Part shown: one piece after another, positions 7,722 through 38,996 of the stretch
Layout: every line of letters begins with the position of its first letter
How positions within the stretch are numbered: the stretch's first letter is position 1
Source of the DNA: Calditrichota bacterium
Lineage (GTDB): Bacteria > Zhuqueibacterota > Zhuqueibacteria > Thermofontimicrobiales > Thermofontimicrobiaceae
Length of the DNA stretch: 40,096 nucleotides
Reading direction: 5' to 3'
Assembly (NCBI GenBank): GCA_013152715.1
Contig: JAADFU010000207.1
Span: 1-40,096 of the forward strand
The notes under the pieces: generated by a model
What the model saw: the letters and a program-made list of their open reading frames with translations, nothing else
What the model was told of the DNA's origin: nothing
The model's database searches: none
Translations under genes and position numbers: made by a program

Positions 7722-10700
7722 TTATCTAAAATCACCCGTAATATTGAACGCCGACCAGTACAAAGGGTGCGCATTAATGTTGTTTTTCACAAATAACACA
7801 GCTTGTTGCAATGCGCGTGCCCGCGAATAACCCTGATGCAAATATCTGAAAAATCGCTTTATCGTCACTGCCGTCGCCAGATCGTCCACTTTCCACAAAC
7901 TGGACAGCAACGAAGACGCCCCGGCGTAAATGAAACTTCGCGACAAACCAACCACCTCATCGCCGACGCCGACTTTCGACAAACCAGTTTCGCACGCGCT
8001 CATTGCCACGAGATAGGCGTGGATGTCCAGACCAAATATTTCGTGAGCTTCCAGCCTGCCATCATTCTTGTCATCCGGCGCCAAAAGCAACGCCGAAAAA
8101 AGCGGATTCAAGGGATCAAATTCGCCATGGCAGGAGAAAAGCAACAAATTCGCATTTGCGCTCAATTCCTTGGCTTTCGTCTCCTGCGCTTCTTTTCCCA
8201 GAAACGCCTGTACATGAGGGTAAATCAACTCAATACTCTCAATCTCTTTCTTTGCAAAAGGCAAATCGTAGCGGGCATCTCCGACATCCGGATTTCCCAG
8301 CGCTAAAATATTCGGCTGCCAGTTTTTATTTGTGACAAACTCATCGCCCTTGTCCATACACGTCGCCCAGACCATGGCGCTCGGGCTCAGCGAAATAGTG
8401 TGTTTCTCAATCAAATATTTATTTTCTTCATCCAGCAAAGCGCTAAAAGGAAGGTAGTGAAGCACGCCGTGAGGAATAATGACCAAATGCGAATTTTCGT
8501 TCAGCGATTTTTCCACCGGCGAAAGCAAAAGACGATACAAATTTTTAAGAAGATTTTGTACCAATAATTGCTTCTGGATGGACTTTCTCAAAGTATCCAC
8601 CAAAGCGTACAATTTCCGTTCGCTGATTTTTTGTTGCACAGCAAGCACGCGCCCATTGGAAATTGCCCACAAATACAACTTTTCCGCTGTGGTGAAATAT
8701 TCCAACAGCAGCACACTATCCGGCAGCATTTTTTGAAAATATTCTATCGACTTCGGCTCTACTGAAATCATCGACGCCAATTCTGGATTCTGTTCTTTCA
8801 AATCCAAAAGAAACTGCTGATAAGCCGCTCGGAGAGAATCCAATTGTTGCGTCAACGCAGTTAATTTTTTCTTCTTTCCGGGCATATTCTGTAATCCAGA
8901 CAATTTGAGCAGGCCCATCTCATTTTGCAACTGACTCATTGCTTCTTCAATGCGCCGCTTTTTGACGAAATCTTCTTCTTTCACTGCTCCGCGAAAATCG
9001 ATTTTTTTGTTCGCCAGCAAGTCGGCAAAATTGCGCGATTTAGCGCGTTCAGCGATTTCAAATGCCTTTTTTTGTTGGTTTGAAGCCAGATAAAAATCGA
9101 TCAGCGCGTAATACACGTCCAGTTTGTCATCGATGAAGCCAGACTTGTATTCTTCAATTTTAATTTTTGAACGCATCGTCTCAATGGTGGACATGGCACG
9201 CAAAAATGAACTCTCAGCCAATTGAGTTTTTCCCTGATCGCGATAAATTTTTGCTAAAGCAAAATAGGCGCGCCACGACACTTCCGGCACGAAGAGCTGC
9301 TCCGCCATTCCTCCGGCTAAACTGAGTGTGTCCTCTGCCGCTGCCATGTCCTGCATTTTTTGATGATACAAACCAATTTCGTACAAAGTCTGCACGAAAT
9401 TTCTTCCGTCCAAAATTTTCTGGCTCAAACTCAGCGCTTTGTGCAAATTGGCGTAAGCATCGGCATAAAGAGATTGCGACAGTTGAATAGTTCCCAGATC
9501 GCGATAGTCATAACTCAAACCGCGCAATGCGCCGGATTTCTCGTCCAATTTGATCGCTTCCCGCAAATGAAAACTCGCCTCATCCATGCGCTTTGCGGTT
9601 CTGAACATCATGCTCAAATTTTTGTGTATCGTCGCCTGATCGATCAAAGATCCTGTTTCTTCTGCCAGCGACAATGCCTGCGTTTCAAATTCGATTGCTT
9701 TTTCCAGATCGCCCAGGCTCATGTGAATCAAGCCTTTCGTCGACAAAGCCACGGACTGGAATTTTTTATTTTCTAATTTTTTGAACAATGCCATAGCCTT
9801 TTTCTGGTATTGCAGCGCTTTTTGGTAATCCGCCATCTTCCAGTAAATATTTGCCAGATACTGCAAAGACAGCCCAATCCACTGGTTGGATTTCAATTTT
9901 TTCGCCAACTCATAGCCTTGCTGCTGCAACTCCAAAGCTTTCTGGTAATTTGCCAGTCTTTCGTGGCTCATTCCCAAATTTTGCAGCAGTTCCATTGAAT
10001 TAGCGACATCACCGAAATTTTGAAAAATGTGCAGCGCCGCTTCCTGATCGTTAATGGCACGCGCGTATTGATCAAGATAAAGCAAAAATATTCTGCCGCG
10101 GTTTTTGAGACATTCCGCCACTTTCAGGCTATCCCCCAGAGCGCGGTATTCCTGAACTGCCTTACTGAAATTTTCCACAGCAGCGCTGTAGTCTCGGCTC
10201 TGTTCATAGACCAGTCCCAATCTGCGGTAGGAATCAGCAGCTTCTTCTTTCTGATGATATTTTTCAGCAATTTGCAAGTACTGTTTTTGATAGGAGATTG
10301 CCTTGTCGTAATCTTTATTTTGCGTGTAAAAATAAATCAAATAGCGCATTTGTTCGATGAGTTGCTCCCCGTCTCCGCTGTCTTTGGCGCGATCGACCAA
10401 TTCTTTCTGGTAAAGAATCGCCCGCTCCCACATTTCTCCTTTTGCCGCAGAGTAAATGATCAATTGGTACAAATTAGCGATAGCATTTTGATCGCCCTGC
10501 TTTTTCGCCATCACCAGCGCCTGCTCGTAAGCATTCAGCGCGTCTCTCCATTTTTCTTCTTCGTAATATTGATTCCCCACCATGACTTTCGCCATAAATC
10601 TTTGCCGTGCGAATTCTTCCTCCTGCGCATTGGTCATTCCCTCAAATCCGACGGTCTGAAAAAACGCGTACGCAGAAGGCGGATATTTTTCCGCAGCCAT

Positions 10701-13700
10701 CATTCGCTGAGCGCGAAAAAGCGCATCGGCCGGGGGATAATCAAAAAGGTAATCATAAAAATATTCCAAAAATTTTCCTGTGGTTTCAGTTTCTCTTCCC
10801 AAAATCAAACTGGGAACCCCGGCATAAATGAGCGATCTTTCAAATAACAATCGCGTGATTTCTGACTGAAAATTCCTTTTCAAAAGAAAGGCTGCCACCG
10901 ACCCCTTGAAATTAATTTCGAAAATATCGCGCAAAAACACATCTGCATTTGATGTCTTCCCTGACAAAATTTTTGACATTAACGGATCGGAACGATTTTC
11001 CTCCATTTGAGAAGCAACAGCCATGAAATCCACAGAGGACATTTTCTCCAACAATGCTGCTGTCGTCTGATTTTTTTTCTTGTCCTCGCTGACATTGTAG
11101 CCCAATTCGGCAACAAGGTAAGTGTAATTCGGCTCATTTGCCCAGAAATAGTCCCCTTTGATTTTCCTATTGAGAAAGCTGTAATAGTATCCGGCAAAAT
11201 CAGGCGCCACGACCACATTTCTCACCGCAGGAAACAATGGCACAGAGAATCGAATGAAATAATTGAAAGGAAGCTCAGCGAGGAAGGCATCCGGGACAAA
11301 AATCAATGTCCGGTAATTTTCTAACGCTGTCGCAATGGGATCGATCAAAATTTTTCGCAAATCACGGGCATAAATTTCCGCCTCAGCGCTGTCGATGTTT
11401 TGGATGTAATTTTTTATTTTTAATTTCACCTTCGCCGGTTCAATTTCCACCTGCGCCATCGCCACAGAATCTTCATTGATCACCCAGATATTGAGCTTTT
11501 TCCCAGTGAAAAAATAATCAACGATTACACGCGAGCCCCCTAAAATGCGTTGAACTTCTCCCGTGGACACCGGGTCGGGACTGATCAGCGCCTCTAATTC
11601 AGGATCTTCGCTTTTTAAGTCTTTCAACAATTTCGCGTACTCATCTTCGTAATTTTTTTTCTGCTTTGTCCACATCACCAAATCTTGCTGCGACGCGTTT
11701 CCCACTTCACGCGCGCGGCGCAATTTCTCATCCAGCGCGGTAATTTCCCGAGACAAATAGCGCGCATTGCCGAGAAAAATTTTGTGTCGCTCTTTCTTAA
11801 GACGCAGGCGGTGATTGCTGATCAGGCTCAGAAAATTCACACCGCGATATTTTTCTGCAAGCTGCAGTGCCGCCTCTGTTTTTCTTTTATCCAATTGAAA
11901 ACGAATCGCCGCTTCAAATAATTGGCGCACTTTGTCCAAATAAATCGGCGAAATGCGATATTTTTTGGCACTTAAAATCGAACGATCAAGGGATTCAATC
12001 GCTTCAGTGAAATAGAAATCCGCACTTTTAATCCGCAGATCATTTTTACCTTTATAAATTTGCGCTAATTTCGCCAGAGAAAAATCAATCTCCCAGAGCT
12101 TCTGATAACCGTTCGTCTGATAAGCTAATTTTCTGGCATCGGTCAATTTTTTCAATGCCGGTTCTATTTCGCCAAGGCGGGAGCTAATTGCGGACAGGTT
12201 CTGATCGGCGTAGATTTTCAGATTGTCCAATCCGTTTTCGCTGCACAAATTCTCCGCCTGACGATAACAGCTATCCGCTATTGCCCACTTTTCCCAGATG
12301 CGCAGGTTTTCAGACAATAAATTTTCCAAATCACTATCGCGGTTAACTAATTGGGACGCTGTGGATTGCAGAAAATGCAAATTACCGGCTAAAATGTAAA
12401 GTTGGGCTAAATCGCGTTTGAAACCGTAAGTCAATTTTTCAATTTTCGGAATGACCGCCTGGGTTATCTCCAGGCTGCGGATCAATCGCCGTTCTGCTTT
12501 TTCATCCACCTCAATGTTTGTGGTGTCCGGCAATAATTTCAATTTATTCACCACAACGGCCAGCGCGCTCAAATTCACCGCATTCATCACCTGCCCGGGC
12601 AATATTTCTTCCTTGCGACAAATTTGATAGGAATGATAAAATTGGTCCCACGATTCGGAATAGTCCGCTTTGAGATAATACAAATAGCCAATGTTGTTTA
12701 AAAAAATCGCCTCGGCGACCTTGTCTTTTTTTTGCTGGTAGATTTTCAACTTCTGCTTCAGATAACTGATTGCATGATCCACATTGCGCTGTCCCAGGGC
12801 AGCATTTCCCAAAATCGAATAAATCAACGCGATTTCCTCGTCGGTGGTAAAACCTCCGGCTGCTGTTGATTGGCCGGCGCTAATTTGTCCCAGGTTGTAA
12901 ACCGGAATTTCCCAGCCAAGAATGCCGATTTTTATCCAATTGGGCTCGGCATTAATGCGTTTGACCTTTCCTGATTGAATCAATCCGATGGCTAACTTCG
13001 CGTAGCGCACCGCCTCTTCCTCGTCATTGAGCAGCAAAAAATTGTAAGCAATACTGCGATAATCAGTTTCCAACTGATTGTAACGACGATGTTTCCTGTC
13101 AAATTTCGCCGCTTGTTTGAAATATTCAATGGAAAGATCGTAATCGCCGGCTAATTGATAGAGCAGCGCCAGTCTTTTTGTGGAAATATTCGCTGCTTTC
13201 TGGTCGCCGAGATCAATCAATAATTTTATCGCTCTTTTGAGAAAATAGGGTCCTTTTTCAAAATCTTCAACAACCAAAGCACAATGTCCCATTTTGCGAA
13301 AAACTTCCGCCTCAACGCGCTCATTGACAAAAGTCGAATCATATTTCAGTTTTATTTGATAATAATGATACGCTTTTTCAAAACCAAATTCTTTCAGATT
13401 ATAAAAATTCGACGCCAAATTTAGCGCTAACTCGCTCTCTAACTTGGGATTAGCATTTTCGTCATTTAGCGCAATCGCCGTCGTCAAGGCGTCAATTGCC
13501 TTTTCGTAGTAACGTTTCTGGCCTTTTTCCTTTTGAAAAGTGATGGTTTGAAAAATCGACTTCACCGGCGCGATTGCCGCATCGAACGCGCGCTCGAAAA
13601 ATGATTTCTGCAAACTTGCTTTTGCGGCACCATATTTTTCCAGCGTCTCGTAGTTAAAACTCAGTGTCAAGTAAGCTTGTATCATGCGATAGTCTTTGGA

Positions 13701-16172
13701 AAGAGCTTTCTCGATAAGCTGCACTGATTTTTCCATCAACTCAGGGTTCAAATCCAGCGCCTGTCCCGTGCGATCCCTTTTTTCGGTCGCCTGGTAGGAG
13801 TAACATAGCCCCAACAAATACAAATATTTTTCCTGAAAAGGATATTTTTCAAGACGATTTTCATAAAAACGAATCGCATCATCGATACGACCCAGTTGGT
13901 AAAGCGAAGCCACCATGCCGCGATTTGCGTCCAGATGAGTTGGCATCAGCGCGACTGCTTGACGAAACCGATTATAGGCAGCATTCACTTCTCCGTAACG
14001 TTGAAAATTTGACCCCGTCTCCAGATATAGATTGAAAAGCCGCTCCTCTGCCTCGATGCCAAATTTTCCGTTTTCAACAGAAATATATTTTGCCGCAACT
14101 TCCTTGTAAGCCCTGATGGCGCCGATGTCATCATCTCGAATCAGCAAAATTTTTCCCAGGAATAAAAGCGCCCTGGCTGTTTCTGCCGGCAATTCGGAAA
14201 AATCAGACTGTAGGGCACGCAGTTCTTGCACCGCGGCGGCGTAATCTTTTTGCTGATAAAAAATTTCTGCGATGCGATAGCGCGCTCTGGCGCCGAGACG
14301 AGGGTAATCGGAATAATTTTGAATGAGTAGCCGCAGAGACGAAATTGTCTGATAGGGGTCGTCTTCCTCAGCGAGAGCCAAAATTTTATCCAGCGCCTGA
14401 TTGACAAAGTTTGTTTCGGACGGATAAAATTGAGGCACTTTCAGATAAACGGAAATTACTTCCTCTTTCTGACCGAAAAGCGAAAAAACATCACCAATTA
14501 AAAGTTGGGCTTGGGCGCAACGCGCGATCTCGTGCGGATACGAGGAAATCAATTTTTCTAATTTCTGAATCGCTGTTGTATATTTTTTTTTCAAAAAATA
14601 AAGTTCAGCCAGATACAATTGTGCTTCCGCTTCGACGGGGCTAATGCCCGCTGCCTGCTTTTTAATTTTCTCTAATTTTTCCACTTGCGCCTGAAAAGAA
14701 TCAATCTTTTTTGCACGATCCAATTCAAATAACCGTAAACTTGCCCTGCCGACTAATTCACGATTTTGCGGAAATAATTTGATAATTTCTTCCAAATAAG
14801 ACCTGGCAACCAACGTGTCGCCCATGAAAGCGTACGTTCTCGCCAACTCGTAATAGGTTTCGCCGAAACGCGCGTGTTGTTCCGGGAAAAAATCAAACAC
14901 CCGTTGAAAAGCCAACAAACGATAGGCTAACTCCGTGGGAGACAATGAATTACTTCGACCGAACAGTAAATCTGTTTCTGGCAAAGGAAAATATGATTTG
15001 GCAAATTGAAACTGAACAAAGGCATCGTCAAACCGGGGAATTGCGCCGTCTTCGCTGACGCTGAAAATATCTTCTGCACCGCCCCGGCGAGACACAAAAT
15101 AAATCATGGAATCCGGCGAACCGACAGCATAAAAATCGTATTCAAGCGCGGGAATTAATTTGATCTCTTGAAAAGATAAAATCTGTTGCGGCTCCCGCTG
15201 CCGAACATGAAAATCAGACAGCGCAGAACCCGGGGGACTCGTCTGATTTTGTCGAAAATTTGAGGTCAAAATCGAGCGCCAGTTTAGTTGCACTTTCCAC
15301 AATTCAGGCTGATCGTCAGGCGTGAGCAAACCATCCCTGTCGGTATCGTTCGCGTAACGTGTGAAAAAGATTTCGTTTCTTTGGGGATGCCAGCGAGGAA
15401 AGGCGTCGTTCGTTCTGCCGTCAGTGACTGGTTGCACAGATTTAATTTCAATATTTGTCCCGGAAAAATCAATTTCTCCGATGAAAATTTGTCCGTAATT
15501 TTTCGGCGGAAGGAATGCGGCAAAACACAGATATTTCCCGTCCGGCGACCAGCTCGGATGCGTTGCTTTCATGGGCGAAAGCTGAAAAATCTGCCAATCC
15601 CTCATGCGAATCAGATAGAGCCGAAAAGTGCCGTCCCTGTCTGACGAGAAAGCAATGTATTTTCCGTTTGGCGAAAATGAGGGGTAGAGATCAGCGCCCA
15701 GATATTTGGTAATTCGAAGCGGGGCGCCATGAGGAAAAACGCCATATTTTCGTACTTTTATCGGGACGATCCACAAATCACCCTGCGCATCCTCGCGATA
15801 AGAGACAAACACCAAATTTTTCCCGTCAGGCGCCCAACAGGGCATAATGTCATCGGATTTGTGTTTTGTGATTTGAATTGCCGAACCGCCGGCGACGGGC
15901 TTCACCCAAATGTCCATATTGCCGCTGCGTTTAGAGGCAAAAGCGACCCATTTTCCATCTGGCGAAACAGCGGGAAACATATCCGTTTCCGGATGCGTGG
16001 TAATTTGCTCATAAATTTGCGTCAGATCAAAACCCGTGGAGCTTCTTGCACGCGCCGTTTTTTTGGGCTGTTCAAAGAAAAAATTCTTGTAATGAGCGCA
16101 CGAGAGAAAAATGGCGCTCGCGAGCAAAATTTGTAGGAACAAACGCGGTAAGATAGACTTGATTATTTTCAT
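7722..16172 (-). CDS. Giant lipoprotein: TolB-like propeller, TPRs, degenerate CHAT domain, TPRs, active-type CHAT protease domain
   Basis: 2816 aa. The N-terminus ends in the lipobox FLSC (Cys25), so it is an envelope lipoprotein. Residues about 60-375 hold six PD40/TolB-type repeats with the SPDGK core, enough for a six-bladed propeller. Helical TPR repeats fill about 400-1460. A first CHAT-like domain (about 1520-1860) has Met1723 near the expected His and no Cys near 1763. A second TPR block (about 1860-2380) leads to a second CHAT domain (about 2460-2816) with His2682 in FSCHGEFD and Cys2727 in SACETG, the normal caspase-like pair 45 residues apart. CHAT domains are caspase-related proteases, often gated by TPR-bound partners. 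Its substrate is unknown. It has its own spacing from the upstream operon, with a terminator-like hairpin only 30 bp before the ATG. Confidence 0.9.
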   Translation of the reverse strand: MKIIKSILPRLFLQILLASAIFLSCAHYKNFFFEQPKKTARARSSTGFDLTQIYEQITTHPETDMFPAVSPDGKWVAFASKRSGNMDIWVKPVAGGSAIQITKHKSDDIMPCWAPDGKNLVFVSYREDAQGDLWIVPIKVRKYGVFPHGAPLRITKYLGADLYPSFSPNGKYIAFSSDRDGTFRLYLIRMRDWQIFQLSPMKATHPSWSPDGKYLCFAAFLPPKNYGQIFIGEIDFSGTNIEIKSVQPVTDGRTNDAFPRWHPQRNEIFFTRYANDTDRDGLLTPDDQPELWKVQLNWRSILTSNFRQNQTSPPGSALSDFHVRQREPQQILSFQEIKLIPALEYDFYAVGSPDSMIYFVSRRGGAEDIFSVSEDGAIPRFDDAFVQFQFAKSYFPLPETDLLFGRSNSLSPTELAYRLLAFQRVFDFFPEQHARFGETYYELARTYAFMGDTLVARSYLEEIIKLFPQNRELVGRASLRLFELDRAKKIDSFQAQVEKLEKIKKQAAGISPVEAEAQLYLAELYFLKKKYTTAIQKLEKLISSYPHEIARCAQAQLLIGDVFSLFGQKEEVISVYLKVPQFYPSETNFVNQALDKILALAEEDDPYQTISSLRLLIQNYSDYPRLGARARYRIAEIFYQQKDYAAAVQELRALQSDFSELPAETARALLFLGKILLIRDDDIGAIRAYKEVAAKYISVENGKFGIEAEERLFNLYLETGSNFQRYGEVNAAYNRFRQAVALMPTHLDANRGMVASLYQLGRIDDAIRFYENRLEKYPFQEKYLYLLGLCYSYQATEKRDRTGQALDLNPELMEKSVQLIEKALSKDYRMIQAYLTLSFNYETLEKYGAAKASLQKSFFERAFDAAIAPVKSIFQTITFQKEKGQKRYYEKAIDALTTAIALNDENANPKLESELALNLASNFYNLKEFGFEKAYHYYQIKLKYDSTFVNERVEAEVFRKMGHCALVVEDFEKGPYFLKRAIKLLIDLGDQKAANISTKRLALLYQLAGDYDLSIEYFKQAAKFDRKHRRYNQLETDYRSIAYNFLLLNDEEEAVRYAKLAIGLIQSGKVKRINAEPNWIKIGILGWEIPVYNLGQISAGQSTAAGGFTTDEEIALIYSILGNAALGQRNVDHAISYLKQKLKIYQQKKDKVAEAIFLNNIGYLYYLKADYSESWDQFYHSYQICRKEEILPGQVMNAVNLSALAVVVNKLKLLPDTTNIEVDEKAERRLIRSLEITQAVIPKIEKLTYGFKRDLAQLYILAGNLHFLQSTASQLVNRDSDLENLLSENLRIWEKWAIADSCYRQAENLCSENGLDNLKIYADQNLSAISSRLGEIEPALKKLTDARKLAYQTNGYQKLWEIDFSLAKLAQIYKGKNDLRIKSADFYFTEAIESLDRSILSAKKYRISPIYLDKVRQLFEAAIRFQLDKRKTEAALQLAEKYRGVNFLSLISNHRLRLKKERHKIFLGNARYLSREITALDEKLRRAREVGNASQQDLVMWTKQKKNYEDEYAKLLKDLKSEDPELEALISPDPVSTGEVQRILGGSRVIVDYFFTGKKLNIWVINEDSVAMAQVEIEPAKVKLKIKNYIQNIDSAEAEIYARDLRKILIDPIATALENYRTLIFVPDAFLAELPFNYFIRFSVPLFPAVRNVVVAPDFAGYYYSFLNRKIKGDYFWANEPNYTYLVAELGYNVSEDKKKNQTTAALLEKMSSVDFMAVASQMEENRSDPLMSKILSGKTSNADVFLRDIFEINFKGSVAAFLLKRNFQSEITRLLFERSLIYAGVPSLILGRETETTGKFLEYFYDYLFDYPPADALFRAQRMMAAEKYPPSAYAFFQTVGFEGMTNAQEEEFARQRFMAKVMVGNQYYEEEKWRDALNAYEQALVMAKKQGDQNAIANLYQLIIYSAAKGEMWERAILYQKELVDRAKDSGDGEQLIEQMRYLIYFYTQNKDYDKAISYQKQYLQIAEKYHQKEEAADSYRRLGLVYEQSRDYSAAVENFSKAVQEYRALGDSLKVAECLKNRGRIFLLYLDQYARAINDQEAALHIFQNFGDVANSMELLQNLGMSHERLANYQKALELQQQGYELAKKLKSNQWIGLSLQYLANIYWKMADYQKALQYQKKAMALFKKLENKKFQSVALSTKGLIHMSLGDLEKAIEFETQALSLAEETGSLIDQATIHKNLSMMFRTAKRMDEASFHLREAIKLDEKSGALRGLSYDYRDLGTIQLSQSLYADAYANLHKALSLSQKILDGRNFVQTLYEIGLYHQKMQDMAAAEDTLSLAGGMAEQLFVPEVSWRAYFALAKIYRDQGKTQLAESSFLRAMSTIETMRSKIKIEEYKSGFIDDKLDVYYALIDFYLASNQQKKAFEIAERAKSRNFADLLANKKIDFRGAVKEEDFVKKRRIEEAMSQLQNEMGLLKLSGLQNMPGKKKKLTALTQQLDSLRAAYQQFLLDLKEQNPELASMISVEPKSIEYFQKMLPDSVLLLEYFTTAEKLYLWAISNGRVLAVQQKISERKLYALVDTLRKSIQKQLLVQNLLKNLYRLLLSPVEKSLNENSHLVIIPHGVLHYLPFSALLDEENKYLIEKHTISLSPSAMVWATCMDKGDEFVTNKNWQPNILALGNPDVGDARYDLPFAKKEIESIELIYPHVQAFLGKEAQETKAKELSANANLLLFSCHGEFDPLNPLFSALLLAPDDKNDGRLEAHEIFGLDIHAYLVAMSACETGLSKVGVGDEVVGLSRSFIYAGASSLLSSLWKVDDLATAVTIKRFFRYLHQGYSRARALQQAVLFVKNNINAHPLYWSAFNITGDFR

Positions 16173-33589: not shown

Positions 33590-35512
33590 ATGGTTACATT
33601 TGCATTTCTGGACTGGCTCTGGCTCATTTTGTTCATCATCCTGATGGTCATCTGCGGAATAATTTTTTATCGACTGGGAAAACGATCGCAGTCGGACTTT
33701 TTTCTCGCCGGCAGAGGGTTGCCATGGTGGCTTCCGGCATCTTCGGTTTACGCCACCCACACGGCGACAGACACGCCCATCTGGGTCGCCGGCGTCGTTT
33801 ACAAATACGGACTCGCCGGTCTCTGGTACGCTTTTTTCTGCGCCTGGGCGGCAATCAGCTCTTTTGTTTCCACGCGAATTTTCAGACGATCGTTAGCATA
33901 TAGTCAGGCTGAATGGCAGGGTTTACGCTTCGGCGGACTGGGCGCCGAAATGTTGCGTGGCTGGGTCGCCGGCTGGCAGGTTTTTATGAATATGTTCATT
34001 CTCGGCTGGGTTGGCATCGCCATGGGAAAATTGTGCAGCATGCTGTTCGGCTGGGATCTGTGGGTCGGACTGGTTGTTTTTACCTCAATCGGCGCTATTT
34101 ACGTGCTGTCTTCCGGCTACTGGGGCGTCGTCATGGCTGATTTTCAGCAGGGAGTCATCGCTTTTTTTGTGATTGCGATCGTGTCGATTTGGGGCATGAT
34201 CGCCGCCGGCGGACCGCAGAAAATTATTGCCAAAATGAAAAATTTCAACAGTACGTGCGAATGGACAATTCCTCAAACTGATGAGCCCACACATGCTTTC
34301 ATCCGCATTACAGACCCTGAATCGGGCGACACATTTGTCGAATCAACCGATCCCTTTGTCATTTCTCCCGAAGCCAATGAGCAAAAATATCACGCGACGG
34401 AAAACCGCGTCCACAAACTCGTTGACGACGGCTTACGCCACGAAAAACTGGCTATTTTGTTCCCGTCGCAAGGAGACACTGTTTTCAGCGACGAGGATTA
34501 CAACATTGTCTGGACAGCCGGAAAGACAAAAAAATTAGTCAATGTTGAATATTCACTTGATCAAAAAAACTGGGAAACTATTGCCGAGCACCGTCTTGAC
34601 GGCCAAGGCTGGCGGTTGAACATGTTTAGTTTCACCGGCATGTTCAAAGGGCAATTTCCTGTTTTTTGGTACATCACGATGATGATCATCGCTATCATTG
34701 GCGGCTTCGGCATGGGCACAAATATCGACTGGTACACCGAAGCGCAGCGTGTGCAATCCGCCAAAACCGTGCGCGACGCTTCCTACAGCGTCTGGGCCGG
34801 CACAGTATTAGTTCTGCTGCGAAATTCCATCTGGGCCGCGGCGATTATCGGCTTTTTTGTTCTGTTTCCGCATTTAGCGTCAATGTCGGAATATGAAATG
34901 GCGTGGTACAAAGTCGGTTTCGGATTTTTGCCGGTCGGCATGGTCGGATTTCTTTTTGCCGGCATTTTGGCGATCCACATGTCCACGGTATCCACGCAGC
35001 TCAATTTGGGCGCCATGTACGCGACGCGCGATTTTTACCATCATTACGTCAACCCGCAAGCCAGCGAAAAACGGCTGGTGATTGTGGGCAGAATTTCCAC
35101 GTTCATCATTTTGCTCGGCTCTTTCGCTTTCGGCATTATCATCGGCGAAGAAATCACGCAGTGGCTCATTTTTGCGCTGTGGATCATGGCTGCCGGCGTC
35201 TGGCTGCCCAATATTTTACAAGTTGTCTGGTGGCGATTCAACTCCTGGGGCTACCTCAGCTCCTGGATTGCCAATCTGGGTTTGAGTTGGCTGATCGTCT
35301 GGATCTTGCCGAAATTTGGCGTCATTCCCGCGTTGCCTGATTACCTGCAATTCTGGATTTTAATCGCGCTCAATGCGATGATTTATTTGCCAATCACGTT
35401 TCTGTCAAAACCGGAAAACATGGACCATCTGGTAAAATATTACGTAATGTCCAGACCCATCGGTTTCTGGGGACCTGTCAAAAGAGAAGCGATAAAAAAA
35501 GGCTTGATTTAA
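33590..35512 (+). CDS. Sodium:solute symporter (SSS family) with a periplasmic Ig-like insertion
   Basis: 640 aa, longer than the usual ~500-550. Helices begin at about 8-27; the family core includes RSQSDFFLAGRGLPWWL (32-48), the Ser/Thr-rich helix 1 region SSVYATHTATDTPIWV, and EAQRVQSAKT (about 382-391), equivalent to the Q-R-AAKS stretch after core helix 6. About 130 residues (219-347) are inserted before that helix, in a loop expected to be periplasmic. The insertion contains W-TIP...IRITDPESG...FVI and later NIVWTAG, VEYSLDQKNWETIA, typical of the two halves of an Ig-like module. A GGAGGAATT site precedes the ATG. It forms an operon with three small membrane proteins upstream. The substrate is unknown. 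Confidence 0.9.
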   Translation: MVTFAFLDWLWLILFIILMVICGIIFYRLGKRSQSDFFLAGRGLPWWLPASSVYATHTATDTPIWVAGVVYKYGLAGLWYAFFCAWAAISSFVSTRIFRRSLAYSQAEWQGLRFGGLGAEMLRGWVAGWQVFMNMFILGWVGIAMGKLCSMLFGWDLWVGLVVFTSIGAIYVLSSGYWGVVMADFQQGVIAFFVIAIVSIWGMIAAGGPQKIIAKMKNFNSTCEWTIPQTDEPTHAFIRITDPESGDTFVESTDPFVISPEANEQKYHATENRVHKLVDDGLRHEKLAILFPSQGDTVFSDEDYNIVWTAGKTKKLVNVEYSLDQKNWETIAEHRLDGQGWRLNMFSFTGMFKGQFPVFWYITMMIIAIIGGFGMGTNIDWYTEAQRVQSAKTVRDASYSVWAGTVLVLLRNSIWAAAIIGFFVLFPHLASMSEYEMAWYKVGFGFLPVGMVGFLFAGILAIHMSTVSTQLNLGAMYATRDFYHHYVNPQASEKRLVIVGRISTFIILLGSFAFGIIIGEEITQWLIFALWIMAAGVWLPNILQVVWWRFNSWGYLSSWIANLGLSWLIVWILPKFGVIPALPDYLQFWILIALNAMIYLPITFLSKPENMDHLVKYYVMSRPIGFWGPVKREAIKKGLI

Positions 35513-35785: not shown

Positions 35786-36508
35786 ATGGGCGATTTAATT
35801 TCAATTATTCTCTATGTCATTGGCGGGATAAGCTTCTTTTTTGTCGGCATTACCGTCATCGCTTTAACCTACATGCTCAAGCCGCACCAATACGACTCTT
35901 TCGTAAAATGGCTCTGTCGCGCATTTTTGCGCACGATGTTCATTCGCGTTGAGACTATCGGAAAGCAAAAAATTGACCCGCAAAAAACTTATATTTTCAT
36001 GTCCAATCACGTAAATATTTTTGACGCATTTGTTTTGAATGGCTCAATTCCGAACTTTGCTCGCGGCGTGGAATTGGAAAAACATTTCGATTGGCCTATT
36101 TGGGGTCATGTCATCACCAAATTTGGCAACATTCCCATCAGCCAGACGAAATTTTTGAGTGCGGCAAAAAGTCTGGAAAAAGCGGAGCAAGCAATCAAAG
36201 ACGGGACGTCTATCATCATTTTGCCGGAAGGACACAGAACAAGGAACGGCAAATTGCTGCCCTTTATGCGCGGGCCTTTTCTTCTGGCTTTACGCGCCAA
36301 AGCCGATATTGTCCCCATGGCGATGATTGGCTCTTTTGAAATAAAAAAAGTAAAGCAGTCCCGCATTCGACCGGGAAAAATTAAAGTGGTATTCGGCGAC
36401 GCCATTCGCTACGAGGACTTTCACCACCTCAATTCCAAGCAATTGAAAGAACACGTACGACAGGAAATGCAAAAATTAATTGACAGCTTTTCAGCAAAAG
36501 ATCGGTAA
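35786..36508 (+). CDS. plsC: 1-acyl-glycerol-3-phosphate acyltransferase (PlsC)
   Basis: 240 aa, normal length. An N-terminal membrane helix (about 5-30) is followed by the acyltransferase motifs: NHVNIFD (His75, Asp80; the NHX4D site), GNIPISQ, and LPEGHRTRNGK (the glycerophosphate-binding EGTR-type motif, here EGHR), then VPMAMIGS. It acylates lysophosphatidic acid to phosphatidic acid at the inner membrane. It is 2 bp upstream of the fatty-acid kinase fusion and is followed by plsY, so the three form a phospholipid synthesis operon. Confidence 0.92.
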   Translation: MGDLISIILYVIGGISFFFVGITVIALTYMLKPHQYDSFVKWLCRAFLRTMFIRVETIGKQKIDPQKTYIFMSNHVNIFDAFVLNGSIPNFARGVELEKHFDWPIWGHVITKFGNIPISQTKFLSAAKSLEKAEQAIKDGTSIIILPEGHRTRNGKLLPFMRGPFLLALRAKADIVPMAMIGSFEIKKVKQSRIRPGKIKVVFGDAIRYEDFHHLNSKQLKEHVRQEMQKLIDSFSAKDR

Positions 36509-36510
36509 GC

Positions 36511-38331
36511 ATGAAAAAAAACAACAAGAAAATTCACTACATTGACGGCGCTCGACTCAAGAGAGCCATCATCGCCGGCAGTCAAATTGTCTTTCGCAAC
36601 AAAGAACATTTGAATAAAATAAATGTCTTTCCCGTTCCCGACGGCGATACCGGCACCAACCTGGCGCTGACCATGACGCAAGTCAACGAAGATTTGCAGC
36701 AATCTTCGGACAGATCTGTTTCCGATGTTTCCAGAGATCTTGCGGATGCGGCGCTTCGCGGCGCGCAGGGAAATTCCGGAGCAATTTTAGCTCAATTTTT
36801 TCACGGATTCGCCGAGGCTGTCGGCGGAAGAGTCAAACTAACAACCAAACATTTTGCCGAAGCTGTCCAGCACGCAAAAAAATCTGCCCGGGAAGCCATG
36901 TCCGAACCGCGCGAGGGCACAATCATCACGGTTATTTCCGATTGGGCGAATTCCGTTGAAAATATCGCTCACAAAACAGACGATTTTATTGAATTGCTGA
37001 AAAACAGCATGTCCCGCGCCAAGCAGGCGCTGAAAGAAACGCCGCAAAAATTGGACGTCTTAAAAAAAGCCGGCGTTGTTGACGCCGGCGGCCAGGGATT
37101 TGTTAATTTGCTGGAAGGAATTATTCACTTTATTGAAAAAGGCAAAATTAAGGATGCGGCACACTATTCTTCCTTTACAAAAAGCGGCGCCGATTCTCCG
37201 CGAAATGTCTCTGATGACATTCGCTTCCGCTATTGCACAGAATGTGTCTTCGAAGCGGTCAACACGGATCGTAAAAAATTGCAGCGCATTCTTGCTGATT
37301 TCGGCGATTCCATGATCATCGTCGGCGGTCCCAAAAAATTTCGCATTCACATTCATACGAATTATCCGCAAAAAGCATTCAAAACGCTGAACACACTGGG
37401 AGTTGTGACTTCCCCCAAAGTGGACGACATGAAAAAACAACATCGGCGGTCATTTTCCAAAAAGAAAATCAAAAAATTCGGCGTGGTTGTTGACTCTTCC
37501 TGTGATTTGCCAGAGGACTTTCTCGTGAGTAATGACGTGCATATAATTCCCGTACGCCTGACTTTTGGCGAACAAACTTATCGCGACAAATTTGACATCA
37601 CACCCGAAGAATTTTACCAAAAGTTAGCTGAAAGCCCATTCCATCCTAAATCATCACAACCTGTTTACAAGGACGTCAAACAAATTTTAGATGAAATTAT
37701 TCCTGATTATGAGCAGTTGATTGCTATTTTGCTGCCGCGAGCGGTGAGCGGGACTTTTCAGGTCGTCCGGAACGCTGCGAAAAATTACGGCGAGGATAAA
37801 ATAGTTTGCGTTGATGGAAAAACTATTTCCGGTGCGACAGGATTAATCGTCATGGAAGCGATTGAAGCGATCAAACAGGAACTTCCGCTGGAGCAGATAC
37901 TGGAAAAAATAAATTACGCGGTGGAAAACACGCACATTTTCATTTCTGTTCCCACGCTCGAATATCTGGTCAAAGGCGGACGTATCAGCGCGTCCAAAGG
38001 GCTGCTGGGCAAAATATTGAGATTGAGCCCATTGGTTTCATTCAACAACGAGGGCAAACTTGTTCCTATTGGTAAGGCTTTCGGGGAACAAAATTCACTG
38101 AAAAAAATGGTAAAAATGGCTGTGGAAAAAGCCGAAGAATATGAAGAAAGACGCTTCATTGTCGCTCACGCCAACGCACCGGAAAAGGCAAAATGGACAG
38201 TAGAACAAATCCGGCGCTTTTTTATGCCGGAAGAACATATTCCTGTTGTGACAGTGACTCCGGCGCTGGGTGTTCACGCCGGGCCTGGCGCAGTAGGTCT
38301 CGCTTTTTTAGGTAAAAATAAAAAGTCTTAA
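36511..38331 (+). CDS. Fused fatty-acid kinase: FakA-like DhaL/middle domains joined to a DegV/FakB domain
   Basis: 606 aa. Residues about 10-205 are a DhaL/DAK2 kinase domain with the Mg-ATP motif PVPDGDTGTN (Asp44, Asp46), RGAQGNSG and DAGGQGF. Residues 238-311 match the FakA middle domain, with Cys242 in YCTE and His280/His282 in HIHTN, the usual zinc ligands. Residues about 322-604 are a complete DegV/FakB fatty-acid-binding domain: VVDSSCDLP, KSSQPV, SGTF, VKGGRIS and HAGPGAVG. In Gram-positives FakA and FakB are separate proteins; together they phosphorylate exogenous fatty acids to acyl-phosphate. Here DegV occupies the place of the FakA C-terminal domain. Location between plsC and plsY strongly supports this role. 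Confidence 0.88.
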   Translation: MKKNNKKIHYIDGARLKRAIIAGSQIVFRNKEHLNKINVFPVPDGDTGTNLALTMTQVNEDLQQSSDRSVSDVSRDLADAALRGAQGNSGAILAQFFHGFAEAVGGRVKLTTKHFAEAVQHAKKSAREAMSEPREGTIITVISDWANSVENIAHKTDDFIELLKNSMSRAKQALKETPQKLDVLKKAGVVDAGGQGFVNLLEGIIHFIEKGKIKDAAHYSSFTKSGADSPRNVSDDIRFRYCTECVFEAVNTDRKKLQRILADFGDSMIIVGGPKKFRIHIHTNYPQKAFKTLNTLGVVTSPKVDDMKKQHRRSFSKKKIKKFGVVVDSSCDLPEDFLVSNDVHIIPVRLTFGEQTYRDKFDITPEEFYQKLAESPFHPKSSQPVYKDVKQILDEIIPDYEQLIAILLPRAVSGTFQVVRNAAKNYGEDKIVCVDGKTISGATGLIVMEAIEAIKQELPLEQILEKINYAVENTHIFISVPTLEYLVKGGRISASKGLLGKILRLSPLVSFNNEGKLVPIGKAFGEQNSLKKMVKMAVEKAEEYEERRFIVAHANAPEKAKWTVEQIRRFFMPEEHIPVVTVTPALGVHAGPGAVGLAFLGKNKKS

Positions 38332-38351
38332 CTTTCAAAGAAAGGGTTTTT

Positions 38352-38996
38352 ATGCTATCATTGATTGCAATTATTGTGTTGAGCTACCTGGCCGGGTCAA
38401 TTCCGACGAGCATTATTGCCTCCAAATTATTCCGCGGCATCGACATTCGCGATCACGGCAGCGGAAACGCGGGAGCCACGAACGCCTTTCGCGTGCTCGG
38501 CTGGAAAATCGGCTTGCTGGTCGCTTTAATAGACGTCGGCAAAGGCGTTTTTGCCACACTGTTAATTTCAAAATTACGTTTTACCGGCTCGCCCATCGAC
38601 TTTTTAACCACAGATGTCGTCCAAATCATCGCCGGCATGTCCGCGATTTTCGGCCACATCTGGACAATCTTTGCCAGCTTCAAAGGCGGGAAAGGAGTCG
38701 GAACCGCCGCCGGTATGTTATTTTCGCTTTACCCCATCGCCGGCGTCATCTGTCTCGCGGTTTTTGTAATTATGCTTTTCACTTTCGGCTTCGTTTCTCT
38801 GGGATCAATCTCCGCAGCCATCGCCTTTCCGATAGTCGTGGCAGTACTCAAGAACCAACAGGGCTATTCCGACACCCTATTCTATTTTGCCATTTTCATC
38901 GCGCTGCTGATTGTATTTACGCACCGCTCGAATATTCGACGATTGCTTAAAGGTGAGGAGAATAAGGTGCCGTTTAAAAGAAAAAAAGAGAAATGA
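38352..38996 (+). CDS. plsY: Acyl-phosphate:glycerol-3-phosphate acyltransferase (PlsY)
   Basis: 214 aa, typical length, five or six membrane helices. Conserved motifs are intact: GSIPTS near the N-terminus, GSGNAGATNAFR (about 37-48), FKGGKGVGTAAG (about 110-121), and HRSNIRRLLKGEE near the C-terminus. It transfers the acyl group from acyl-phosphate to glycerol-3-phosphate, the first committed step of phospholipid synthesis, and would consume the product of the preceding kinase fusion. It ends 18 bp before the palindrome at 39015-39048. Confidence 0.95.
   Translation: MLSLIAIIVLSYLAGSIPTSIIASKLFRGIDIRDHGSGNAGATNAFRVLGWKIGLLVALIDVGKGVFATLLISKLRFTGSPIDFLTTDVVQIIAGMSAIFGHIWTIFASFKGGKGVGTAAGMLFSLYPIAGVICLAVFVIMLFTFGFVSLGSISAAIAFPIVVAVLKNQQGYSDTLFYFAIFIALLIVFTHRSNIRRLLKGEENKVPFKRKKEK

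Follow-up and report, generated by a model that had tools for sequence, protein, structure and literature searches.

A putative circularly permuted Ig-like repeat in the outer TM5-TM6 loop of an SSS-family symporter

Symporters of the SSS/SLC5 family (vSGLT, SGLT1 and SGLT2, NIS, PutP, SiaT) share their fold, the order of their transmembrane (TM) helices and a match to the Pfam SSF model with the protein described here, which is encoded in a stretch of 40,096 nucleotides (hereafter the window) and carries an Ig-like insert between TM5 and TM6. In the LeuT fold, the TM5-TM6 loop is the junction of the two inverted repeats, and in SGLT1 the corresponding loop lies outside. The large CBD loop of NCX1 is also found between TM5 and TM6. 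Its CBD1 and CBD2 resemble our insert in being Ig-fold domains on a large loop after TM5 of an inverted-repeat secondary transporter, but NCX1 belongs to another family, its domains lie on the cytosolic side and bind calcium, and the available part of the source describes no permutation (PMC10550945). In AmTrac and MepTrac a circularly permuted beta domain sits, as in our protein, in the central loop of a transporter, but according to the accessible text these proteins are engineered, the domain is a GFP barrel and the transporter is of a different family (PMC4491562). SSS transporters with an extra module do exist (the sensor kinase fusions CbrA, CrbS and RpuS; SLC5/STAC), but in them the extras are sensor-kinase or signalling domains, whereas here an Ig-like domain interrupts the transporter itself, on its outer side; the portion of the review of prokaryotic SSS proteins open to us describes no Ig-like TM5-TM6 domain, and the word immunoglobulin is absent from the review (PMC7918813). 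Inserted domains have termini that lie closer together than those of other domains (PMC13114784), and strand permutations of Ig-like folds have already been described (PMC12051499), in both cases as stated in the available parts of these papers. The combination of a permuted Ig-like repeat with insertion between TM5 and TM6 of an SSS protein was not found in the open papers searched. Once its order is restored, the insert corresponds column by column to Ig-like repeats that occur in tandem, in the ordinary order, in large proteins of these bacteria (SPNGGE...ITW...YSxDxGxxW...WxVP...RVxD; near Pfam Kre9_KNH and Big_7).

The open reading frame (33590-35512, plus strand) codes for 640 aa with 13 predicted TM helices, and its product is, on the combined weight of sequence and model, an SSS-family symporter with predicted sodium coupling. 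It matches SSF (PF00474) with an E-value of 4.1e-25 and 88.9 bits against a gathering cut-off of 22.8, and its closest solved relatives by sequence are vSGLT and SGLT1. The score against NCBIfam TIGR00813 (103.2 bits) is under the curated cut-off of 184, and this is a trait of the subfamily and not an effect of the insert, because an insert-free relative (L066) is equally low (104.6 bits). When the 640 residues were searched for kinase or STAC domains at E-values up to 10, only SSF and a weak Big_7 match appeared. The full-length AlphaFold2 model, built on an alignment of 56 sequences, has a pLDDT of 84.3 and a pTM of 0.85; Foldseek places SGLT1 first (E 7.6e-14), along with SGLT2 and NIS and also sialic acid symporter structures, and the target-normalised TM-score reaches 0.75 (NIS), in keeping with the LeuT-type fold of SGLT and NIS. 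Using TM limits (TM0-TM12) that we set from the helices of this model, the first transporter part (aa 1-219; 33590-34246, plus strand) comprises TM0-TM5 and a short helix at 209-216, and the second (aa 338-640; 34601-35509, plus strand) TM6-TM12 and a cytoplasmic tail. S465/T466 align on the S-S pair of vSGLT, which we take to bind sodium. With the amino terminus placed outside, the inside loops hold 3, 3, 0, 2, 0, 1 and 7 lysines and arginines and the outside loops 0-1, the insert loop being left out of the count. This positive-inside distribution, together with the alignment to SGLT1 and vSGLT, places the loop between TM5 and TM6 outside, in agreement with a previous reading of the sequence only, which had assigned it to the extracytoplasmic side.

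The sequence-only reading had proposed that residues 219-347 hold an Ig-like module whose halves appear in swapped order. The insertion, its site and the positions of both halves stand, and only the limits have to be drawn more tightly: alignment with insert-free orthologues, from which the limits were taken in preference to the profile, delimits an insert of 118 aa (aa 220-337; 34247-34600, plus strand), with an uncertainty of 1-2 residues. It begins with the C-terminal half of an Ig-like repeat (aa 220-260, NSTCEWTIP...FVI; 34247-34369, plus strand), which covers columns 53-89 of the repeat profile and has strands at 219-226, 234-241, 248-251 and 256-259 in the full-length model. A linker follows (aa 261-287; 34370-34450, plus strand) with a predicted helix at 264-279, bridging the original C-terminus of the repeat to its original N-terminus. 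The N-terminal half (aa 288-337, ILFPSQGDTV...WETIAEHRLD; 34451-34600, plus strand) comes last and covers columns from about 2 to 52.

The swapped order itself could be confirmed by profile matches, by shuffling and by rejoining the halves. Our repeat profile was built from 33 ordinary repeats of 11 non-SSS proteins, which had been found with the insert as query and so bring a mild bias. With this profile, the C-half match lies upstream of the N-half match in 14 of 16 sequences (15 inserted loci plus the window); L061 and L064 give the N-half match only, and none of 65 sequences without an Ig-like insert produced a match at an E-value of 10. Taken by themselves, the C-half matches are of low significance, with E-values from 0.0004 to 0.81 in a set of 81 sequences. 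When the halves are put back in order, the score of the window insert rises from 39.5 bits for the N-half alone to 63.6 bits for both, and the 16 inserts reach 44.8-73.9 bits against 29.3-46.3; in each of them, the window's included, none of 100 shuffled C-halves attained the true score. Profile-profile comparison tells the same story: the native insert alignment does not follow the N-to-C strand order of an ordinary repeat and yields two swapped matches (insert columns 85-142 on repeat columns 1-58, and 3-55 on 40-90), whereas the rotated alignment gives one continuous match of 86 columns and a score of 116 versus 84.6. The seam is gapless in 18 of 18 inserts, the N-half ending at profile column 52 and the C-half starting at 53, and with the order restored the core columns P6, W22, S36, W43, W58 and P61 are each present in all 18, a set from which L041 (truncated) and L059 (unknown residues) are left out. 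The Pfam model Big_7, made independently of this work, also backs the rejoined order and scores it higher than the native one: 23.1 bits (E 1.2e-4; aa 1-65 on columns 5-66) versus 19.0 bits (E 0.0022; columns 4-43), both under the cut-off of 24.1. Kre9_KNH stays below its gathering cut-off as well (20.4 bits versus 24.6, in L062). Rotating the insert in two-residue steps with the linker kept gave modest gains, from 1.4 to 10 bits, and in L064 the best cut fell inside the C-half; these gains are small because the long linker breaks the alignment, and with the linker removed the gain is clear.

From the profiles and the models, we consider that the insert is one complete Ig-like repeat in circularly permuted form: a C-half, a linker of about 27 aa and an N-half. 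The earlier alternatives were a circular permutation or two truncated modules, and the permutation is favoured, as the halves complete each other without loss or repetition of a residue and are predicted to form one sandwich. AlphaFold2 on the insert alone (pTM 0.76) places most strands of either half at a pLDDT of 90-96 and predicts a helix within the linker, and the full-length model repeats sandwich and helix, although the alignments behind both models are shallow (15 and 56 sequences, respectively). The beta-sandwich whose absence would have spoken against an Ig-like module is therefore present in the prediction; it is a confident one made of both halves, and the pTM and pLDDT imply that strands pair across them. 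A fold search of the insert model against solved structures returned only weak Ig-type rows (best Foldseek E 0.078, best VIA-align Z 4.9), a result that weighs on neither side, as a sequential aligner is not likely to trace a permuted chain. Sequence searches of solved structures found nothing below E 0.1 with the insert alignment; the ordinary repeats matched Reelin, sialidases and SorCS2, but just in short segments surrounding the Asp-box motif.

Alternatively, two truncated modules could each pair with the halves of a second molecule to form a domain-swapped dimer. The halves are indeed 23-43 residues apart, and dimers have been described for some SSS structures (8j74, 9j7c). Still, a single chain is predicted to be one compact domain, with the high pLDDT just mentioned, and the halves are exactly complementary, so that we regard such a dimer as improbable. 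In a single permuted domain, the long linker of the 18 inserts, to be compared with the 5 residues between units in three consecutive tandem repeats of L042, is in keeping with a connection that has to span the sandwich from end to end. The break falls in the turn that precedes WTIP (strand F in Ig naming), so that the ends of the insert occupy adjacent positions in the repeat, and the natural ends are joined by the linker and its predicted helix. Since a domain can presumably be inserted only if its ends are close to each other, which those of an ordinary Ig repeat are not, the permutation may be what permits the insertion. Rotation would thus solve the geometry of inserting a domain whose ends are far apart, and the insert looks like a clean example from nature of a domain both circularly permuted and inserted, with the repeat rotated to the exact residue.

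The insert is patchily distributed. In 60 genomes (the window's own and its relatives), insert-bearing full-length orthologues occur in the own genome and, at 69-82% identity, in seven others; a further 12 genomes give strong matches in two blocks, with the insert missing between them. Scanning public genome contigs gave 80 loci, 15 with the insert (L051-L065) and 64 without any; the latter have the same 52-residue loop region without exception. The insertion is therefore not a common feature of SSS transporters; had it been one, the proposal of the sequence-only reading would have been undone by its own terms. In the phylum sample, the full insert is present in 8 of 82 genomes, a ninth (G066) having a truncated copy at a contig end, and among the relatives of outlying genomes full-profile matches were found in 1 of 146, 8 of 150, 1 of 146, 1 of 198 and 1 of 148 genomes, each count including the central genome. 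The full-profile matches taken as loci in other genomes were all inside such symporters (14/14), and the partial ones never were (0/20). A Rhodothermaceae orthologue (L067, 5998-7746) carries an unrelated insert of 53 residues at the same TM5-TM6 site, given which the site may tolerate insertions. One genome (G088) has two different inserted symporters (L131 and L139), and another locus (L075, 5323-8628) two adjacent symporters of this SSS subfamily.

Most of these records are metagenome-assembled and L065 breaks off close to the end of its contig, which could bring to mind an artefact of assembly or gene calling such as chimeric contigs. This is exceedingly improbable: 15 of the 80 loci, among them that of Fodinibius roseus strain DSM 21986, share both the rotated unit and its site, independent assemblies contradict an artefact, and no stop interrupts the matches. 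The record names of the 15 inserted loci cover KSB1, Neomarinimicrobiota/Marinimicrobia, Calditrichota, Aminicenantes, Ignavibacteriales and Acidobacteria, besides Fodinibius roseus.

In a core tree built without the insert columns, and in which the truncated L041 was not placed, 15 inserted rows form one clade (SH-aLRT 100), while L061, L065 and the pair L062 and L064 fall elsewhere. Presence of the insert requires four changes on this tree, at least three of them forced, and a single clade of all 18 inserted rows is rejected (AU p 0.00275, on a quick tree keeping 28 of 74 insert-free rows). L065, with the insert, and L098, without it, are sisters (support 96) and share their upstream genes, a Kdo transferase 82% identical and one of the heptosyltransferase family. 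Because both the rotation point and the host site are the same everywhere, we favour a single origin of the cassette, which calls for later transfers or losses since the inserted transporters are not one clade; the constancy of the insert-free loop disfavours many independent losses. The cassette would have been cut once from a tandem array, from mid-repeat to mid-repeat over one repeat length, and would later have been lost or passed between transporter lineages. The insert tree does not point to a donor of the L061 and L065 inserts, as one clade of the 14 main-clade members is not rejected (AU p 0.387), and the left loop flank of L061 is slightly nearer to the inserted clade by sliding identity (76 versus 69%), too little to build on. 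Microhomology at the host site was considered as a route of insertion and discarded: the 64 insert-free loops average -3.5 bits versus -4.3 for shuffles, and the likeness to the Ig E-F region was seen by eye only.

By sequence comparison, the insert changes more rapidly than the core, yet purifying selection acts on it. The 14 main-clade members have a mean pairwise identity of 82% for the core, 41% for the two halves and 15% for the linker. For the four pairs usable for both, dN/dS ranges over 0.18-0.31 for the insert and over 0.034-0.077 for the core, with core dS saturated in three further pairs. Positions conserved in at least 75% of the inserts are mostly those of ordinary repeats, the insert-specific ones being L4, F5, D10, V21 and, at the junction with TM5, the turn N53-S54, and across the insert alignment no ligand-type residues are conserved beyond the fold core. 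It looks as if the fold is kept while the surface drifts, which is not what a shared small-ligand site would leave. Also, the insert appears to be dispensable, as judged from the 64 of 80 relatives that lack it and from the syntenic pair L065/L098, which differ in it and make its effect on transport directly testable. With so few insert-specific conserved positions and so many orthologues without the insert, the earlier suggestion of an extracellular ligand-binding sensor is not supported.

The reading that we tentatively put first, at somewhat less than even odds, is that of a permuted Ig-like repeat in the TM5-TM6 loop, derived from one cassette and serving as an accessory docking or recognition module on the outer face. 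Its least certain step is the role, which would be the docking or recognition of a protein partner or a polymer, outside the transport cycle, and not the sensing of a small ligand shared by all; the basis for it is twofold, namely the absence of conserved ligand-type residues and dispensability. The patchy presence, the faster evolution and the insert-free syntenic sister would also suit a tolerated decoration that folds without harm to the transporter and serves no function under selection. We find this somewhat unlikely in view of the purifying selection, although avoidance of misfolding alone could give an equal dN/dS, and of the retention of the insert across the main clade, where its distances correlate with those of the core (Mantel r 0.79 over 14 members, a value that none of 2000 permutations reached). 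It is also possible, if unlikely, that the module acts as a regulator or gate coupled to conformation, moved on TM5 and TM6 by the transport cycle and altering transport when a ligand or partner is bound. The insert does lie between the two inverted repeats, a geometry like that of AmTrac, where cpEGFP occupies the central loop of an ammonium transporter (PMC4491562, available part), and in NCX1 the regulatory part on the cytosolic side consists mostly of the Ig-fold CBD domains (PMC10550945, likewise in part). But analogy is no proof of coupling, no ligand-type residues are conserved specifically in the insert, its surface changes fast and many orthologues do without it. By the same analogy, one could speculate about a natural counterpart of the engineered sensors, a permuted domain wired between inverted repeats, moved by transport and tuning it upon binding, in a cassette mobile between symporter lineages; we hold this for doubtful. 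The docking module remains our preferred, if tentative, interpretation.

A scan of neighbouring genes at 12 inserted loci, covering some of the neighbours only, pointed to no consistent substrate. Carbohydrate genes appear at five loci (phosphomannose isomerase at L052, GH88 at L053, GH92 at L054, CBM9 at L056 and GH3 at L057) and lipid genes at three (an acyltransferase in the window and at L051, an acyl-ACP thioesterase at L055). Downstream of the symporter (35786-38996, plus strand), the window encodes a PlsC-type acyltransferase, a protein with DAK2, FakA-middle and DegV domains, and a PlsY-type acyltransferase. By its domains, the second probably unites the fatty acid kinase FakA with FakB in a single chain, and the gene set may represent a compact route from fatty acids to lipids. 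No Rfam family was detected in the window. Farther upstream (7722-16172, minus strand) lies the gene for a protein of 2816 aa that combines PD40 repeats and numerous TPRs with a CHAT protease-like domain at its C-terminus, and in which no Ig-like repeat of the insert's kind was found. The one other match to the ordinary repeat in the same genome (L165; G000:C18:82843-83136, minus strand) is in native order in a large protein, at the end of which a sorting-type tail was named by eye.
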